A stretch of DNA of 47,750 nucleotides from Clostridium sp. (GTDB lineage Bacteria > Bacillota > Clostridia > Clostridiales > Clostridiaceae). Below the pieces are notes generated by a model. The model saw nothing but the letters and a program-made list of their open reading frames with translations, was not told the DNA's origin and did not search any database. This document shows, one piece after another, positions 11,709 to 19,962 of the stretch. Within the stretch, counting starts at the first letter, position 1; every line of letters starts with the position of its first letter. The stretch spans positions 1 to 47,750 of the forward strand of contig JALEZF010000017.1 in the NCBI GenBank assembly GCA_022773025.1, read 5' to 3'. A program made the position numbers and the translations under genes.

Positions 11709-13130
11709 TTGGTTTTTTCAAGTGTACCTTTTTTATTTTATTTTTTACCATTAGTTTTAATAATTTATTATTGTTCTTTTTTCTCCAAGGGCCTGAAAAA
11801 CTCAGTTTTGCTTATTTTCAGCTTATTCTTCTATGCCTTTGGAGAGCCGAAATTTGTATTATTAATGATACTTTCAATACTAGTGAATTACTTTTTAGGC
11901 CTTCTTATAGATAGATTTAAATCTAATCATAGTAAAGCCAAATTAATTCTTATAATAGCCCTAATATACAACTTAGGGATGCTATTTGTATTTAAATACC
12001 TTACATTCTTTTTAGAAAACTTTAATATATATTCTAAAGTCATGGTCCATGTTCCAAAGATAGTTCTGCCTATCGGTATATCATTTTTTACCTTTCAGGC
12101 ATTGTCCTATGTTATAGATGTTTATAGAGGTGATGCTAAAGTTCAGAAAAGTCTCTTAAACATAGGTCTTTATATATCTTTCTTTCCTCAATTAGTTGCA
12201 GGACCTATAGTAAGATATACAACCATAGAGGAGCAAATAAATAATCGAACTGAAACCTTCACTAAATTTTCTGTTGGAACCTGCAGATTTATAGTGGGAT
12301 TATCTAAAAAGGTTTTGATATCAAATACTATGGCCATAATAGTAGATCATGCATTTTCAATGAGCTCTATAGCCCCTATTTCTACAAGCTATGCATGGCT
12401 TGGCGCCATAGCTTATACTCTTCAGATATATTTTGACTTCTCAGGATATTCTGATATGGCTATAGGCCTTGGTCTTATGTTTGGTTTTAAATTTGATGAA
12501 AACTTTAATTACCCATATATCTCAAAATCCATCAGCGAATTTTGGAGAAGGTGGCATATATCTCTTGGTACTTGGTTTAAGGATTACGTATACTTCCCTC
12601 TAGGAGGTTCACGAGTACGCAATAAGGATAAAATGATTAAAAATCTTTTCATAGTTTGGATTCTTACAGGTATATGGCATGGTGCTGAGTGGACATTTTT
12701 AGTATGGGGATTATGGCACTTTACTCTTATTGCCTTTGAAAAAGTAACCAACTTTCATAGATCCAATAAGCATCCAATTTTAAGAACTATATATGTTCTT
12801 TTTGTAGTTGTAATAGGATGGGTGATCTTTAGGTCTCCAAACTTAAAGGAAGCTGGTACATACTTAGGTTCTATGTTTGGCCTTAATGGAGCTCCCCTTT
12901 GGTCTAAGGAAACTATTATGTTTTTAAGAGAGTATGGCATCTACCTTGCTTTAGGTATTTTATTCTCTACCCCTATAGCTAATAGAATAAATAAAAAGCT
13001 TGCCTCTAGAGTAAAACTAAGCTCAGTTATAGATTTTATTTATCCTATAGTTCTTATGATTTTATTCTTTATATGCGTCACAAACTTAGTTAAAAGCGTT
13101 TATAACCCATTTATATACTTTAATTTCTAG
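11709..13130 (+). CDS. ccsH: MBOAT O-acyltransferase (AlgI/CcsH-like)
   Basis: Polytopic membrane O-acyltransferase of about 473 aa that passes acetyl groups across the membrane for polysaccharide acetylation. Diagnostic blocks are the N-terminus MVFSSVPFLFYFLPLVL, the DFSGYSDMAIGLGLMFGF segment, EFWRRWHISLGTWFKDYVYF, and the catalytic histidine in TGIWHGAEWTF. The TTG start has AAGGAGGAG upstream, 13 bp after the previous gene, so translation is tightly coupled. With the AlgX/AlgJ-like gene behind it, the pair should acetylate the product of the synthase. DltB is the alternative family member, but no dlt genes are nearby and the AlgX-type partner favours polysaccharide acetylation. Confidence 0.9.
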   Translation: MVFSSVPFLFYFLPLVLIIYYCSFFSKGLKNSVLLIFSLFFYAFGEPKFVLLMILSILVNYFLGLLIDRFKSNHSKAKLILIIALIYNLGMLFVFKYLTFFLENFNIYSKVMVHVPKIVLPIGISFFTFQALSYVIDVYRGDAKVQKSLLNIGLYISFFPQLVAGPIVRYTTIEEQINNRTETFTKFSVGTCRFIVGLSKKVLISNTMAIIVDHAFSMSSIAPISTSYAWLGAIAYTLQIYFDFSGYSDMAIGLGLMFGFKFDENFNYPYISKSISEFWRRWHISLGTWFKDYVYFPLGGSRVRNKDKMIKNLFIVWILTGIWHGAEWTFLVWGLWHFTLIAFEKVTNFHRSNKHPILRTIYVLFVVVIGWVIFRSPNLKEAGTYLGSMFGLNGAPLWSKETIMFLREYGIYLALGILFSTPIANRINKKLASRVKLSSVIDFIYPIVLMILFFICVTNLVKSVYNPFIYFNF

Positions 13131-13184
13131 GGTTAAATGCTCATAGTATAAAATATTTCAAAACTAGAGGTGATTATAAAAAAT

Positions 13185-14381
13185 ATGGATTACAAGATAT
13201 TTTTCAGAAAATATATAACAACAATATTGTTCCTTGTAATGCTGTTTACTTTTTCCTATAAAACCTTAGTAAATTCTTATAGTCCTATAAAGGAAAGTAT
13301 AAATTTTCAAAGTTCTTTAAAGGAAAACATAAAGAGTGTTGAAACTGCTATGAAGGAAAATGTCTATGGCAGGTACGGTTTTATAGAGGCTTACGGCTAT
13401 ATGCAAAGACTTATGAATAAAGATGAAGTATCAAATTTCGAAGTTGTAAAAGATAAAAATGACTTTCTCCATTACTCATACTTTGCAACTGGTCCTAACG
13501 AAACAGATTTTTTAGTATCAAGGATGAAATCTCTAAAAGAAAGCATAAAAAATCCTGATACAAAGCTTGCATATATAATGACTCCTGACAAGTATATAAA
13601 AGGTTATACGGAGTTCAAATCTGGTATGCCATACAGCTATGCCAATGAAACTGCTGATAACTTTCTTTATGGACTTAAGGAAAATCATATAGATTATCTT
13701 GATCTGCGTGAAAATATAAAATCCAGCGGAATTCCAATGGATAAATTATTTTTTAAGACAGACCACCACTGGACTATAGAAACATCCTTTTGGGGATTTC
13801 AACAGATTGTACGCTTTATAAATAATAATTTTCAGGTAAATTTAGATCCTGAGAACTTTTATACTGACAAAGAAAACTATAATTCTTTAGAGTATAAAGG
13901 AGTATATCTAGGTTCCATGGGAAGAAAGACAGGACTTGCTTATGATGGGCTAGATGACTTTACTATAATATATCCTAAATTTGATACCTCCTATATATTT
14001 CAATATACTGATGGAGAAAACTACACTCTTCAAGGAAATTTTGAGGATGCTTTATTTTCCGCTCATGCCTTTAGACGTGAAGATGATTTATATAACGCGG
14101 ATAAATATTTTGCATATTTAAAAGGGAACTATCCTTTTGGCCATATAATAAATACCAAAAATTCTGAAGGTCCAAAAGCTTTATTCGTAAAGGATTCTAT
14201 GATGGTTCCACCTATATCATTTTTGTCATCTATGTTTTCGGAAATATATATAGTTGACCCAAGATATTACATGGAGGATATTCCAGCTTTAATAAATAGT
14301 CTTCCTTTAGATTTTGTATTTGTATCCTTTTACCCACAAAACTTAGTAGATGAATTTTTCCCTTTCTTTAAGGAAAAATAA
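13185..14381 (+). CDS. ccsI: AlgX/AlgJ-like SGNH-fold acetyltransferase (CcsI-like)
   Basis: Type II membrane protein with an N-terminal anchor (about residues 10-30) and an extracytoplasmic SGNH-hydrolase-like domain. The family's catalytic Asp-x-His block is visible as FFKTDHHWT (about 185-193), and a KDSMM motif near residue 335 is the likely nucleophile-serine position (GDS in relatives). Such proteins accept acetyl groups from the MBOAT partner and put them on the polymer. I chose ATG 13185 because AGAGGTGAT lies about 10 nt upstream; GTG 13170 overlaps that site. It is the last gene of the operon and is followed by a strong terminator. Confidence 0.82.
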   Translation: MDYKIFFRKYITTILFLVMLFTFSYKTLVNSYSPIKESINFQSSLKENIKSVETAMKENVYGRYGFIEAYGYMQRLMNKDEVSNFEVVKDKNDFLHYSYFATGPNETDFLVSRMKSLKESIKNPDTKLAYIMTPDKYIKGYTEFKSGMPYSYANETADNFLYGLKENHIDYLDLRENIKSSGIPMDKLFFKTDHHWTIETSFWGFQQIVRFINNNFQVNLDPENFYTDKENYNSLEYKGVYLGSMGRKTGLAYDGLDDFTIIYPKFDTSYIFQYTDGENYTLQGNFEDALFSAHAFRREDDLYNADKYFAYLKGNYPFGHIINTKNSEGPKALFVKDSMMVPPISFLSSMFSEIYIVDPRYYMEDIPALINSLPLDFVFVSFYPQNLVDEFFPFFKEK

Positions 14382-14387
14382 AAATGA

Positions 14388-14424
14388 AACTCCAGCATAA
14401 CGATTATTTAATCATGCTGGAGTT
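14388..14424. terminator. Bidirectional terminator between the ccs operon and the unknown operon
   Basis: Arms AACTCCAGCAT (14388-14398) and ATGCTGGAGTT (14414-14424), with TTTTTATTTT after it on plus and TTTCATTTTTATTTT on minus. It serves two convergent transcription units. Confidence 0.9.
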
Positions 14425-14442
14425 TTTATTTTGAAAATGACT

Positions 14443-14931
14443 TTACCAAATCAGCTCTATATCTTCATTTTCCTTCTTATAATAAGCTATGACTTCATCT
14501 AAAAATCTTTTAATATTCTTTTTGCTAAACATAACATGAGTTATATCCCTTTGAAGACCGCTTTTAGTATGTATTTCTAAGGTTATATCATCACTAGAAT
14601 TATCGTAATAAGTATAGTCTATATCCTCATATCTTATCATAAATTCCTTGTATTTATTCTTTGGAGTCTTTACGTAAATAGCAGTGGTTGTAAAGATTAT
14701 CCCCTCTGCTACTGTTCCCCAATCTGAAAGATAGCATATTACATCACTTCTCTCATCTCTTCCGTTTATTATATCCTTCATTATGTCGTCCATTAATTTG
14801 CAGGTTCTGCTCTTATTATAGGAAAATCCAACATCAGGGGAAGACCACAGTTTTGTCCTGATAAGAAATCCATTTTCTTCATTTATATCATATATAAGCT
14901 TTTCTAAATATTCCTTCTTTGACGTACTCAT
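14443..14931 (-). CDS. Unknown 162-aa protein, third gene of an uncharacterised three-gene operon
   Basis: I do not recognise a named family. The protein is soluble with no signal or membrane segment. The centre alternates short beta-like strands (GIIFTTTAIYVKTPKNKYKEF, IRYEDIDYTYY, DITLEIHTKSG) and ends in an amphipathic helix (KKNIKRFLDEVIAYYKK). That order, strands then one C-terminal helix, resembles bacterial PH-like domains that bind membranes or peptides. It starts 39 bp after the pore-like gene (AAGGAG about 10 nt upstream of ATG), so it is co-transcribed with it. A role as sensor, adaptor or immunity partner of the two larger proteins is inference. Confidence 0.75.
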   Translation of the reverse strand: MSTSKKEYLEKLIYDINEENGFLIRTKLWSSPDVGFSYNKSRTCKLMDDIMKDIINGRDERSDVICYLSDWGTVAEGIIFTTTAIYVKTPKNKYKEFMIRYEDIDYTYYDNSSDDITLEIHTKSGLQRDITHVMFSKKNIKRFLDEVIAYYKKENEDIELIW

Positions 14932-14970
14932 TTTCTTTTAGCTCCTTACTCTTTTGTAAATAAACTTTTC

Positions 14971-16005
14971 TTATATTGAATTAAGGTTTTTCAAATAATT
15001 TTCTCCATCCCTTATAAGAGCTTCTGTAGCGTCATCTAATTCTCCATTTTCCTTTAGTAGGGATGTATCTAATATTGATTTTATTGTTTGAGCCACCTGA
15101 ACACATTTATATATGTCCTGTTTTTCTAAGGTGCTATAACTGTTCCAGTCACAGCCTTTTTCTTCTAAAGTCTTTACCATTAAATCTACATATTTAACTA
15201 AATGCTTATCAAGGTTCTTCAGTAGTTCAGTAATTTGATTTGCTCTTATAAATACAGCTTTAAGTGCAAGGCCTATATTTTTAGCCTGAGCTTTGAAGGC
15301 TATAGCCTTGTCATAATTGCCATAGGAATCATTTAATGCCGTCCTAGATTTACTAGCAAATATGGCCCCTCCTACAGCAAGAGCTGGTCCCACAACAAGA
15401 CCTCCTAAAACTGCCATTCCTCCAGCCATTCCAAAGCCTCCTGCACTAAGTGCACCTCCACCAAGCCAAGCTAAAGTTGCATTTACTGCGGCAGCTCCTG
15501 ATAGTGTTCCTATAGCTGTACCTGTTGTAGCAGTTACTATAACACCTCCAAGGCCACTCATAACTACACTGTAAGTTCCATAAGCTAATAGAGCACCTGA
15601 ACCTATAGCTGCAAGTCCATTTACAGCAATTTCTTTTGCTTCAAAAGATGCCTCTTTAAGCTTTTTAAAATTCTCACTAGATGAATCGAAATTTTTTAGT
15701 TCATCTATACCTTCAGATTCTTTCAGATTAATATTTTTTATCTTTTCAAAATTTACTATAAAATCATTTATAGATGTAGTAAGAATTTTTATCTTTTCAC
15801 GTCCAAGACTCTCTATAGCACCTTTACTTTTATCCTTTGCCATAGCTATAAAATTCTCTGCCTCTTTTGCTACAGCTGAAGCTGCTTCGTTCACCTCTTC
15901 TGCTTCATTCATATTCTTTTTAGCTTCTACTCCATCTTTAATTCCTTTTCCTGCAGCTGCTGTGGCTGCTACTCCTAAGATAACTGGTATAAGCGGTAAT
16001 GGCAT
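14971..16005 (-). CDS. Unknown 344-aa helical protein with long glycine-rich hydrophobic core (pore-former-like)
   Basis: The layout is a short hydrophobic start (MPLPLIPVILGVAATAAAGKG), then an acidic/basic helical arm (about 30-120). A run of about 80 almost uncharged glycine/alanine/valine residues (about 127-215, e.g. SAGGFGMAGGMAVLGGLVVG) follows, then a second helical arm (about 225-344). Helix, hydrophobic hairpin, helix is the architecture of alpha-helical pore-forming toxins and of some membrane-acting effectors, but I see no motif that assigns it to a named family. There is no signal peptidase site, so it is probably cytoplasmic or inner-membrane. RBS GGGAGGAT precedes the ATG. It lies 58 bp after the 523-aa gene and 39 bp before the 162-aa gene. 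Confidence 0.78.
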   Translation of the reverse strand: MPLPLIPVILGVAATAAAGKGIKDGVEAKKNMNEAEEVNEAASAVAKEAENFIAMAKDKSKGAIESLGREKIKILTTSINDFIVNFEKIKNINLKESEGIDELKNFDSSSENFKKLKEASFEAKEIAVNGLAAIGSGALLAYGTYSVVMSGLGGVIVTATTGTAIGTLSGAAAVNATLAWLGGGALSAGGFGMAGGMAVLGGLVVGPALAVGGAIFASKSRTALNDSYGNYDKAIAFKAQAKNIGLALKAVFIRANQITELLKNLDKHLVKYVDLMVKTLEEKGCDWNSYSTLEKQDIYKCVQVAQTIKSILDTSLLKENGELDDATEALIRDGENYLKNLNSI

Positions 16006-16063
16006 AACTTTTATCCTCCCTTGTAATCTAGTAATATATATTTATGAAATATAATTTATATAT

Positions 16064-17635
16064 CTAAAAATCTAAGCTCTTCTCCTTGTCCATCATAAAA
16101 TCATCAAATTCCTGAAAATCTTTAAACTGCAAGGCAGATCCCATTTCTAAAGCTATATTATTTAAAGCCTTAGTGAACTTATCTAAATCCTCATATTTTA
16201 TAGCAGTATCTATGTCTTTTAAACTATTTTCGAAAACTTCCTGTCTATTTGAGTAAAATTCTTCTATGCTTTTGGACAGTTCTTTTCTTTGTATATCCAT
16301 AGATTCAATAGCAGCTTTTGCTAAAGCATGTATTTTGAGTCTTTTTTCTTCTGATAATCTCTCATCCCTTAAAACCTCCATGGCTGCTCCATACACAGAG
16401 GAACTTGTCATGTATCCTATCATTCCACCTATGGCAGTGCCTACCCCTGGGAATATTGCTGTACCTATAGCTGCTCCCCAGCTTGCTGCCATCATGCCTG
16501 TTCCTTTTTCCCCCAGCTCCTCCATAAGCTCCACTCCATCTATTTCTCCATTAGCATACCTCACAAGAGATTTGCTCACTTGAACTGTTACTGTTGCAAT
16601 GGTTGCTGGAACATTGGTTTTAGATAAGTTTTGAAATATGCTGTTCTTCCCTGAAGCCATAAAGCCTCTTATAGCTGTATCAGAAGCTCCAATGATATAT
16701 GCAGTTGCACTTCCTTTTGCAGTATCTAATGCCACATCCTTTAATGCTTCACTTATCTCTTTTTCTCCCCTTACCACAGAGACTATGTTTTTTGATGTGG
16801 ATATAGCCGATGACATTACTGCTGCTGCCTTTGCCTGCTCTACTCCAGAGCTGTGTGCAGTTTTGGCTACATATTTAGCTGTGGCTAGTTTAGGATGCTC
16901 TCTCAAAAACATAGCTTCTTTAGAGCTTATTCCACTATCTGTTATATCTTTAGCAGTTTGGCTATATTTTTTAGCCTGGCGTTCTAAAGCTTTAGCTTTC
17001 TCTACGTTTCCATTTTCATAAAGTTCCTTTGCTTTCTCAGTAAGGTTCTTTGCCTCCTTCTCTGCATACTCTTTTGCTATTTTTGCCTGTTCTGATGGAA
17101 CTAGGACCTTGTTTCCACGATACCTGTCCCACTTTTCACCTACAAGCTTCTTTACAAGGTTCTCCGAGCTTTCTTTTATTTGAGCTTCACTTTCATAAGC
17201 TCCACAAAACTTCATCTGAGCACTCCATAAAGGTTCTCCATTTGGAATTATAACAGGATTACCATTATTGTCTACAGACAAAACATCAAATTTAGTATGA
17301 TTCCCAAGTCCAACATCATTAGATCTGGCTACTCTTTCAGATTTTCTATTTATTATATTTTCTGCGTTAGTCTTATCTACATAATTCACCTCTGCAGAGA
17401 AACCAGCCTGCTGCTTTAGGTTTTGATACTTGAAGTCAGGATTGACTTTTGACTCTGCTATATGCTTAAGTCCTTTTCTTATAACCTCTCCATTTTCTCC
17501 TATCTCTCCACTATATCCTTTTAAATATTCAGCTGCAGCTCTTCCATATCTCTCCACATTTTCAGTTGTGGTAGCCCCAATAACAGAATCTATAACACCG
17601 CTATGTTCCTCATTTTTATCTTTTCTTTTGTCCAT
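16064..17635 (-). CDS. Unknown 523-aa protein: nuclease-like N-terminal region, coiled coil, glycine-rich membrane segment
   Basis: First gene of the unknown operon. I start it at ATG 17635 (MDKRKDKNEEHSG) because AAGGGGA lies 5 nt upstream; the longer reading adds 11 residues without a ribosome site. Residues about 70-155 contain KQQAGFSAEV, a conserved-looking NAENIINRK block, KFDVLSV and SAQMKF. The E...D...QxK order is suggestive of a PD-(D/E)xK nuclease-like fold but not proven. A long Ala/Lys/Glu coiled coil follows (about 165-290). A glycine-rich hydrophobic stretch comes near 390-425 (WGAAIGTAIFPGVGTAIGG), then helices and an aromatic C-terminus ending FQEFDDFMMDKEKSLDF. Function is unknown; nuclease/membrane effector roles are inference. 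Confidence 0.78.
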   Translation of the reverse strand: MDKRKDKNEEHSGVIDSVIGATTTENVERYGRAAAEYLKGYSGEIGENGEVIRKGLKHIAESKVNPDFKYQNLKQQAGFSAEVNYVDKTNAENIINRKSERVARSNDVGLGNHTKFDVLSVDNNGNPVIIPNGEPLWSAQMKFCGAYESEAQIKESSENLVKKLVGEKWDRYRGNKVLVPSEQAKIAKEYAEKEAKNLTEKAKELYENGNVEKAKALERQAKKYSQTAKDITDSGISSKEAMFLREHPKLATAKYVAKTAHSSGVEQAKAAAVMSSAISTSKNIVSVVRGEKEISEALKDVALDTAKGSATAYIIGASDTAIRGFMASGKNSIFQNLSKTNVPATIATVTVQVSKSLVRYANGEIDGVELMEELGEKGTGMMAASWGAAIGTAIFPGVGTAIGGMIGYMTSSSVYGAAMEVLRDERLSEEKRLKIHALAKAAIESMDIQRKELSKSIEEFYSNRQEVFENSLKDIDTAIKYEDLDKFTKALNNIALEMGSALQFKDFQEFDDFMMDKEKSLDF

Positions 17636-17670: not shown

Positions 17671-17679
17671 ATTATATCA
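17671..17679 (-). promoter_or_regulatory. Extended -10 promoter of the unknown operon
   Basis: Minus-strand TGATATAAT (17679-17671) is an extended -10 (TGnTATAAT) about 35 bp upstream of the 523-aa start. No good -35 is visible, which is usual for extended -10 promoters. The intergenic stretch 17636-17812 also holds a TATAAT at 17780-17785 on the plus strand that may drive the divergent decayed genes. Confidence 0.6.
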
Positions 17680-17818
17680 TAGGAAACATTTATATATAAA
17701 TAGAAAAATCTCCTTAAGAGCTAGCAATAAAAATTTTTCTTATGGCCCTTTCACATGTAAAAAAGACTTTTAACGCGCATATAATGGTAAAAACATAAAA
17801 TATTAGGATGGGTTGATT

Positions 17819-18589
17819 TTGTCTAATTCTTTGAGCAATCTAAATTTTCAAGACATTATTGATAGCTGTGCAGATTTACGTTCACAGCTAGACAGAAGTG
17901 ATGTAGAAACTATCATCGTCAATGACTTTACTAAGACCTTTGAAAGTAATTATACAGAAGGAAAAGAAATATATCAAAACCTTAAAGATGGTATAAGTGA
18001 ATTTTATAGTAGTATGAATGAAACAGCAGATTATACACCTTATGATGCCTTTGCAGATTCTATTCGTCAGAATATCATGGATGAAAAAGATTCCTTACTT
18101 TTATATTCTTATGCTGCATATAAGAAAACTCGAATATCTTCCGATAAGTCAAAGGAATTTAATGGATTATTTTCATGATGATATAATCCCTATAGAAAAA
18201 GCAAAAATTTTTGAGGCTCTTATCATGGATTTTGAGACTTGGTATTCTCAGCTAAGTGTAAAGAATCAGCTTCCAAAGGTATTATAGAGAATGAACCTTT
18301 TTTATACCCGTTTCAATTCTAAACAATCTATCAATAAGAGTTTTTTATCGAGGATAAGTTCCGAATTTCTCTAAAACTTACATCAACTAAAAAAAACATT
18401 TATGACATGACGACAGCTAAGATTGAAATTCCCCCTATATATACTGAAGTTCTAGAATTTATAGAGGGTTATGCTCCTTGTATTTTACCTGAGAAAGGTT
18501 TAAATAAAACTAATCCATTAGGAGAGAATTCTTTTTTTCATGAGAATTACAGCTATGTCTCTAACTTTATAAAAATCACCTATCCTTGA
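17819..18589 (+). pseudogene. Frameshifted helical protein, first remnant of the decayed locus
   Basis: A TTG start at 17819 behind AGGATGGG opens a frame of about 119 codons (MSNSLSNLNFQDIIDSCADL) that stops at 18176-18178. Near 18155-18165 the protein sense continues in another frame (MDYFHDDIIPIEKAKIFEAL). A further shift near 18250 leads to KESASKGIIENEPFLYPFQF, then stops at about 18320. A third open piece (KFRISLKLTS ... FIKITYP) ends at 18589. Coding-like composition across all pieces, broken by several frame changes and stops, marks a decayed gene. The family is not recognised; the intact part is helical and acidic. It is transcribed away from the unknown three-gene operon and leads into a WG-repeat remnant. 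Confidence 0.7.
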
Positions 18590-18622
18590 ATTTATGTTAA
18601 ATATCAAAATAACAAATTAGGA

Positions 18623-19250
18623 ATGTTTAATAGGGTGAATCATACTATACTTCAAAAACAGTATGATAATATTGATTTTCAATTTTCATGTAATAATATT
18701 TTGAAAGCAGAATTCAATAATAAATATTCTTTTCTAAAATTCTCTGAAAATCAAGTCTTAATCTATGGAGACTATGATTATATATATGAATTCCACCATG
18801 GATATGCCATAGTCCAAATTAACAAACGTAATGGTGAATCCCTTTATGGATTAGTAGATAGCAATTGTAATTTAGTAGTTGATACCCTTTGGACCGATTA
18901 TTCACTGATGGACAAAGAATATTTCTTTAGACGCATAAAGTTTTGGGGTACACCTGCTATATACTACACTTTTGAAGGTAAAGAATATTCTTCAGATGGC
19001 TATTTTCAGTGCGATAGATCTTTAGTTTTTGATGACGAGCTTAAGCAATACGGATATATTGATGAAAAAGGTAATTTGGGGATATGAAATAGCTATGGTT
19101 CAGAATGAATCAAAAAAATGTGTGCCTAATCGCATTGATCCTTTAAACAAGATATGGCATAGCAAAAATATTTATCCTCTTATTCCTGTAAATAAGTATG
19201 TGATAAGGAGTGAAGATGTCAGTGAGACAATCTATAAAATCTTTATGTAA
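18623..19250 (+). pseudogene. WG-repeat protein remnant, frameshifted
   Basis: The frame from 18623 encodes beta-rich repeats of WG type (GYAIVQINKRNGESLYGLVDSN and QYGYIDEKGNLG). At about 19070-19085 the frame ends in TGA, while the neighbouring frame continues with plausible protein (GYEIAMVQNESKKC ... IYKIFM) to 19250. A single-base shift in the G or A runs near GAAAAAGGTAATTTGGGGA therefore explains the break. There is no clear ribosome site at 18623, so the true N-terminus may lie further upstream in the decayed region. WG repeats are structural beta modules found in surface and ATPase-linked proteins. The 3' end overlaps the start of the next gene by 35 bp, so the two were probably translationally coupled. 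Confidence 0.65.
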
Positions 19251-19962
19251 GACCCTAATGGATTTGCACAAATCCCAGGTGTGCCCTATACTACTAAACA
19301 TAAATTACTATGATGATTTAGAAGAAGTAGTTGAATGTTTAATTTTAAGACACTATTTCAATGAAGGAAAGATATTAGTTCTCAAAAAGCTTAGATTTAA
19401 TGAAGAGAGCTATGATAAGGTAAATGAAATTAAACGGTCTTATGGTTATCAATTTGCATACTATAATAAAATCTCTAAAAACATAACTTCTGATTTTTAT
19501 CCTTCTCTAATCTTTAAAGACAACTATCTTGAGCAAATACCCATGAATGATAAAAACTTTATACTAATAGCTTTAGAACACCTTTCATCATTATCAGATA
19601 AGGTTGAAGTCATCATAATACCTAATATTAATGAGATTTTTGAAAAAATAAAATCAGTACATAGCAAACTTCTTCATTCCTTTAGGTGCTTAAAAGAAAT
19701 TGATATACAAAGAATACTTAGTCTTTCTTTTTTAAAAGCTTTTAATCCCTTAGAAGATAATGCCTATGCCATAATTGATATTGCACAAAAGGAAAAAGAG
19801 CAGCTAGCTTTGAAAACCGGTTTGCTTGAATGGATTAAAGCCCCAGATAAAGACGAGGTAGGCGGTCTTGGAAATGTACGTGGTTGGTTGAAAATCCGTG
19901 CTAAAATATACGACAATATGGTTGTAGCAAAACAAAGTGGTGTAAATACCCCAAATGAATGA
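19216..19962 (+). pseudogene. N-terminal fragment of a Ycf46-like AAA+ ATPase
   Basis: ATG 19216 has AAGGAG (19204-19209) upstream; the longer GTG start at 19210 abuts the ribosome site. The 248-residue product reads like the N-terminal region of Ycf46-type AAA proteins, ending with the linker LLEWIKAPDKDEVGGLGNVRGWLKIRAKI that normally precedes Walker A. It then stops at VNTPNE, with no Walker A, Walker B or C-terminal lid. The ATPase core therefore seems deleted. Another frame just downstream encodes AIPGEGSK and a stop, which might be the old C-terminus, but this is uncertain. A terminator follows at 19999. Whether the fragment is still made is unknown. Confidence 0.65.

Follow-up and report, generated by a model that had tools for sequence, protein, structure and literature searches.

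A putatively membrane-associated three-gene cassette of Clostridium sp. related to PDC-M09 and Bunzi and most likely involved in phage defence

Several described or proposed bacterial systems resemble parts of the operon presented here, which comprises the genes g1, g2 and g3 on a 47,750-nucleotide stretch of Clostridium sp. DNA (GCA_022773025.1, contig JALEZF010000017.1, positions 1 to 47,750; hereafter the window). The nearest are PDC-M09 and PDC-M40, known from PADLOC models, and the Bunzi system with its components BnzA and BnzB; a weaker likeness exists to Eleos (LeoABC). The PDCs are putative and mostly untested, according to PMC12988326. Going by its model names, PDC-M09 is a two-gene candidate with adjacent A and B genes, and no mention of it was found in the searched literature. 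For Bunzi, TerB has been reported (PMC10952713). A TerB-encoding system named Dionysus, from a 2025 preprint, is cited in a review (PMC12926258) and could overlap with the cassette family described below. The DefensePredictor main text (PMC13092281) does not contain the terms YkgJ, TerB, PDC, LRAT, glycine zipper or pleckstrin, and no such cassette is named in the searched literature.

The three genes form a real operon on the minus strand, with the lengths given in Table 1 and with gaps of 58 bp (g1-g2) and 39 bp (g2-g3), as had been stated in an earlier sequence-only reading of this DNA. The association is more than chance, because relatives of g1 and g2 stand side by side in several phyla. 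In silico analysis indicates a self-contained, membrane-associated cassette of the PDC-M09/Bunzi neighbourhood, most likely serving phage defence (rough probability 0.58). The product of g2 matches PDC-M09A with E values of 2.3e-25 and 1.7e-23, and g2 and g1 adjoin each other as the A and B genes do. Relatives of g1 match PDC-M09B (1.6e-17 in locus L028, 2.4e-21 in L063). Thus the operon, first called unrecognised, proved recognisable through g2, but not through the window g1. Since the latter fails the PDC-M09B test, the trio is regarded as a variant near PDC-M09 and Bunzi, not as a member. It further differs from PDC-M09 in possessing g3, and the PDC-M09A homologue of L078, which matches at 2.7e-114, is shorter (286 amino acids, aa) than g2.

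The likeness to Bunzi relates to g3, which weakly resembles the N-terminal part of BnzA (5.2e-5; 1.5e-5 for the protein of L015), and to locus L087, where a BnzB homologue (2e-130) with a PDC-M09B-like end is located beside a PDC-M09A homologue (5e-101) and a TerB-like gene. These genes belong to an operon-like row (L087:5803-9740), which includes a further 433-aa gene and links Bunzi with PDC-M09. In contrast, the window operon contains neither BnzB nor a full BnzA and carries the nuclease-like g1 instead. A BnzA family search gave no match anywhere, controls included, and is uninformative. With respect to PDC-M40, the g2 partner in L084 matches PDC-M40B (2.4e-63) and carries the tail of g1, but its front is HNH-like by eye and not of the E-D-QxK type. 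Finally, g1 is weakly similar to LeoB (4e-5) and the helical front of L022 to LeoBC (1.4e-8), both similarities falling in glycine-rich or coiled-coil stretches whose composition may inflate the scores; unlike Eleos, which includes a dynamin-like GTPase, the three window proteins contain no GTPase family by Pfam.

Phage defence is preferred because g2 is a PDC-M09A homologue, L087 joins such a homologue to BnzB and a TerB-like gene, WYL genes occur near family members, and their neighbourhoods are rich in PADLOC matches. At E<=1e-15, 97 neighbouring open reading frames (ORFs; the longest of 308, one family member removed) matched 101 PADLOC models, versus 4 models from 74 control ORFs on twelve stretches of eleven genomes, although Bacillota alone make up the control set, the neighbours represent several phyla, and several models can match one protein. 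Type III restriction and methylation, ZacABC, type II methylation, mad3 and dGTPase are among the 25 neighbour models listed, mad3 being matched in the control set as well.

Together with these features of the control set, several results weigh against a defence role. The window g1 does not match PDC-M09B at E<=1. The Pfam scan (E<=1e-8) of the 32 other window proteins matched 40 families, and the 25 listed are metabolic, transport and envelope families with no defence family among them; of the known defence genes proposed earlier as something to look for nearby, PADLOC matches occur beside relatives, and none was seen among the listed window families. The mobility that was to be checked at the same time was not supported, matches on phages, plasmids and viral contigs being few: g2 has no match in phages and one plasmid record, the Enterobacter g1 has two plasmid records, and viral contigs hold four weak g2 relatives and zero g1 relatives. 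Residues 150-217 of g2 are modelled at a predicted local distance difference test score (pLDDT) below 50. Foldseek and VIA, run with the whole g1 model, returned helical look-alikes only and did not identify the front, and an hhalign comparison of 19 fronts with 19 Mrr_cat domains was not significant (E 0.17), the short aligned piece pairing the D and QxK of both sides. To our knowledge, no activity is known for any family member except by kinship to Bunzi. The experiments on the latter are those of Millman 2022.

Joint conservation of the genes, whose absence had been set beforehand as speaking against a system, was found. Profiles were built and open frames mapped around 51 g2 places (E<1e-25; window itself excluded), eight further loci having been left out before the count: the duplicates L069, L070 and L083, the viral contigs L065-L068, and the Ruminococcus albus locus L064, which lacks g2. 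A gene with the g1 tail is located on the same strand within 2.5 kb of g2 in 41 of the 51 places, and in 29 of the 36 with more than 2.5 kb present on both sides of g2; the places include close kin, and the second copy of L033 was counted with the tail of the neighbouring copy, so that these counts are not independent. The distances among g2 proteins and among tail proteins (last 110 residues) are correlated (Mantel r 0.78, p 0.001, n=41), with a contribution from shared ancestry. Among the ten places without a detected tail, the partner is PDC-M09B in L078 and BnzB in L087, partners of similar size occur in L077 and L088, and the tail was also undetected in L034, L040, L046 (these three near contig ends), L071, L079 and L082. 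The whole order g1-g2-PH is repeated in five other loci (L015, L016, L019, L027 and L075). The architecture closest to the window, with g1, g2 and a PH-only g3, is that of L075:8455-11753 in genome G445, but its g2 is interrupted. Conservation of the pairing is consistent with docking of the g1 tail on g2. In ten g2 loci the partner is a tail-only protein of 136-152 aa without an enzyme front. One such cassette, in Pseudomonas hunanensis (L045:5647-12396), adjoins a type III restriction enzyme and a DNA methylase.

Hydropathy analysis of g2 revealed hydrophobic stretches at residues 1-23, 126-174 and 185-220, the first lacking, as read from the same analysis, the basic residues expected of a signal peptide. 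The glycine-rich core is the most conserved part of the protein: in 35 sequences the mean majority-residue fraction is 0.82 within the core and 0.36-0.60 in the remaining g2, and the core is near-invariant in these relatives from five phyla. Because an asparagine, prolines and leucines are also invariant, this conservation does not result from composition alone. In the AlphaFold2 (AF2) model (mean pLDDT 67.7) long helices span residues 12-86 and 213-283, and ClyA pores are among the weak structural matches, the whole-model fold search giving otherwise helical look-alikes. The shape of alpha pore formers, as originally proposed, would fit the long helices around a glycine-rich core, the core itself being poorly modelled, and g2 is considered a putative pore former.

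The front of g1 is nuclease-like. PD-(D/E)xK enzymes carry the residues E...D...(E/Q)xK in a helix-strand-strand-strand-helix arrangement. AF2 modelled g1 at a mean pLDDT of 69.1 (mostly 70-96 in the front) with a helix (66-95), strands (101-104, 118-121 and 137-141), a second helix (150-164) and a further strand (176-179); E82 is placed in the first helix, D117 just ahead of a strand, and QMK partly in the following strand and partly behind it. The PD-(D/E)xK order suggested by the sequence-only reading thus agrees with residue conservation and predicted secondary structure, but was not confirmed by the fold searches or the Mrr_cat comparison given above, and the front is a putative nuclease. 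Pfam, NCBIfam and PHROGs yielded no credible g1 match that would give a nuclease identity by family, and PDB sequence searches returned nothing useful. Strong window-type fronts (QAGFSAE...QMKF, E<=1e-30) were found in 14 non-redundant loci ranging over Clostridia, Bacilli, Enterobacteriaceae, Azospirillum and Fibrobacter. A broader alignment spans distant Campylobacterota, Acinetobacter and Bacillota fronts, the PDC-M09B-type fronts of L077 and L078, and the PH-fused L118 and L119; in it all 19 nuclease-type fronts share G, E, Q and K, and D is aligned in 15/19 (about nine residues ahead of Q in the remaining 4), a conserved fraction that is not independent evidence, the 19 having been picked by eye as nuclease type. 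On the R. albus plasmid of L064 (3124-9311), which lacks g2 at this place, a protein of 515 aa carries a window-type front and is encoded next to a HerA-like ATPase of 1000 aa.

The tail-only partners, the concentration of conservation in the g2 core and the ClyA match would also fit a cassette in which the membrane pair acts as the effector by forming a pore or disrupting the membrane, the nuclease-like front being regulatory or inactive. The invariance of E, Q and K suggests that catalysis is kept, and a mere regulatory part would not explain why the fronts change class. This alternative is considered unlikely.

The change of class is seen in several loci. In a Synergistaceae genome (L020:2436-4598) an LRAT domain stands on the g1 tail, accompanied by a YkgJ-type gene and g2; its Pfam score is 29.3 bits at a cut-off of 24.3. 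HNH-like fronts, assigned from motifs by eye and not confirmed by Pfam, occur in L024, L080, L084 and the second copy of L033. The last-mentioned locus (L033:6001-12630, Acinetobacter pecorum) contains tandem g2 copies whose partners bear differing fronts, one of the E-D-QxK type and one HNH-like. This anatomy presents the membrane pair as a platform and the enzyme as the interchangeable part.

Toxin-like fronts swapped on a constant part are typical of polymorphic toxins, and the predicted shape of g2 recalls alpha pore formers; g1 with its exchangeable front might accordingly be delivered to neighbouring bacteria via g2, the small gene providing immunity. However, (i) no known delivery domain was detected by Pfam in the three window proteins; (ii) the constant part is C-terminal and the front N-terminal, the reverse of most polymorphic toxins; (iii) the genes that recur beside the cassette code for conserved families (YkgJ-type, TerB and PH-like), not for variable immunity proteins; (iv) the start of g2 lacks the basic residues of a signal peptide. 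A toxin for competition is therefore judged quite improbable, and of the defence or competition roles first suggested for the cassette, defence is retained.

The PH-like assignment of g3 is tentative: the protein resembles bPH_3 (hhalign E 2.6e-4, probability 43%; controls 0.087-0.83), but has no Pfam match. Near the 51 g2 places, CxxCxxCC (YkgJ-type) genes were found in 27 cases and TerB-like genes in 12, WYL genes lie within 6 kb of nine, and a g3-type domain lies beside five; Pfam confirmed examples of the CxxCxxCC-type, TerB-like and WYL genes. In L015, L016, L019 and L027 one protein combines the CxxCxxCC and g3-type domains; the window carries the g3-type domain alone, and its genome has no match to PF03692 (9/14 control genomes matched). 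A g3 search matched 5/147 relatives, own genome included and one match being weak and riddled with stops. L118 and L119 each encode an E-D-QxK protein fused with a domain of 47% identity to g3, and this natural fusion ties g3 to the nuclease-like protein; the adjacent gene is of WYL type (by eye) in L118 and encodes TerB in L119.

The distribution of g2 is wide and patchy. Across 84,980 species genomes, a g2 search located 32 loci, distributed over Bacillota, Synergistota, Campylobacterota, Pseudomonadota and Fibrobacterota. Matches were present in 14/147 genomes of relatives at E<=1e-3, several of them weak, and in 12/398 genomes of the phylum at E<=1e-15 (own genome included in both), and none was found in the same-genus genome G001. 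This patchiness suggests gain and loss. The Enterobacter and Pseudomonas cassettes had no match in the E. coli collection in a DNA comparison, in which the BLAST low-complexity filter may hide g2. The recurrence of TerB-like and CxxCxxCC genes and the metabolic surroundings in the window would suit an envelope system for housekeeping or for coping with metal or membrane stress, a function proposed for TerB proteins. The patchy occurrence, including the absence from G001, argues otherwise, as do the nuclease-like and LRAT fronts, which do not suggest housekeeping, and such a role appears very improbable.

Expression signals of the operon are in part recognisable. The genes g1, g2 and g3 are preceded by the ribosome-binding sites AAGGGG, GGGAGG and AAGGAG, respectively. 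Upstream of g1, TG precedes TATAAT, with TTTATA as the -35 element at a spacer of 18; the extended -10 promoter proposed earlier is thus present as a site, but such sites are not enriched in the window (40 found, 35.0 expected, standard deviation 6.0). The shared terminator was upheld as a hairpin of -20.2 kcal/mol (z -7.3, 0/200 shuffles as good) with T runs on both strands, located between g3 and the convergent gene at 13170-14381; a pattern scan for terminators did not list it. The glycine-zipper-like segment noted in g1 was likewise recovered by hydropathy (Table 1).

Table 1. Positions of the genes, domains and signals of the operon in the window
Feature	Position	Strand	Description or basis
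g1	16064-17635	minus	523 aa: front nuclease-like, middle long and helical, then a glycine-zipper-like stretch and the conserved C-terminal tail
g2	14971-16005	minus	344 aa: PDC-M09A homologue with long helices on both sides of a glycine-rich hydrophobic core
g3	14443-14931	minus	162 aa: PH-like domain in the C-terminal two thirds; YkgJ-type half of relatives absent
PD-(D/E)xK-like front of g1, residues ~60-190	17066-17458	minus	aligned fronts, AF2 order
Candidate active residues of g1	E82 17390-17392; D117 17285-17287; Q140-M-K142 17210-17218	minus	
C-terminal tail of g1, residues ~425-523	16067-16363	minus	common to g2 partners in many phyla; also standalone
Glycine-zipper-like hydrophobic stretch of g1, residues 388-407	16415-16474	minus	hydropathy; AF2 pLDDT <50
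Near-invariant glycine-rich core of g2, residues 158-222	15340-15534	minus	majority-residue fractions
Extended -10 promoter-like site upstream of g1	17671-17700	minus	consensus scan; not enriched versus shuffles
Bidirectional intrinsic terminator separating g3 from the convergent gene	14387-14425	both	predicted fold

On the plus strand upstream of the trio, positions 17813-19962 hold broken-looking remnants, in agreement with the decayed locus reported before: two ORFs (121 and 89 aa) that overlap in different frames, one of 154 aa with WG repeats (Pfam 2.3e-9) and one of 250 aa that was assigned to no family. On the other side (11709-14381, plus strand), an MBOAT acyltransferase gene followed by one for an AlgX-like SGNH protein forms an O-acetylation pair converging on the trio; the G001 counterpart of the flanking AlgX-like gene is a 28% relative at best.

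For phage defence, the following sequence of events may be proposed. The g2 protein would reside in or on the inner membrane face through its glycine-rich core, with the g1 tail docked on it. The small partner (g3 here, YkgJ-type and/or TerB elsewhere) would silence the pair or sense a membrane or metal cue during infection. On the trigger, g2 would insert or open, the PD-(D/E)xK-like front of g1 would cut DNA, and either phage DNA would be destroyed or the cell killed.

More broadly, and tentatively, at somewhat less than even odds, the family might represent a modular immune platform in which a near-invariant glycine-rich membrane protein and a docking tail carry unrelated enzymes (PD-(D/E)xK-like, HNH-like or LRAT) or no enzyme at all, with small partners that sense metals or lipids (YkgJ-type, TerB, PH-like) serving as the gate, and which would unite PDC-M09, PDC-M40 and Bunzi as one superfamily. 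Such a platform has not been described as such in the searched literature. If this is true, Bunzi, itself little understood, has the same membrane platform as several separately named candidates, and one mechanism study would explain many of them. The near-frozen g2 core, lying between fast-changing helices across phyla, predicts a precise and directly testable membrane task. A tail shared by an LRAT-type enzyme and DNA nucleases would then show how defence systems exchange their effectors.

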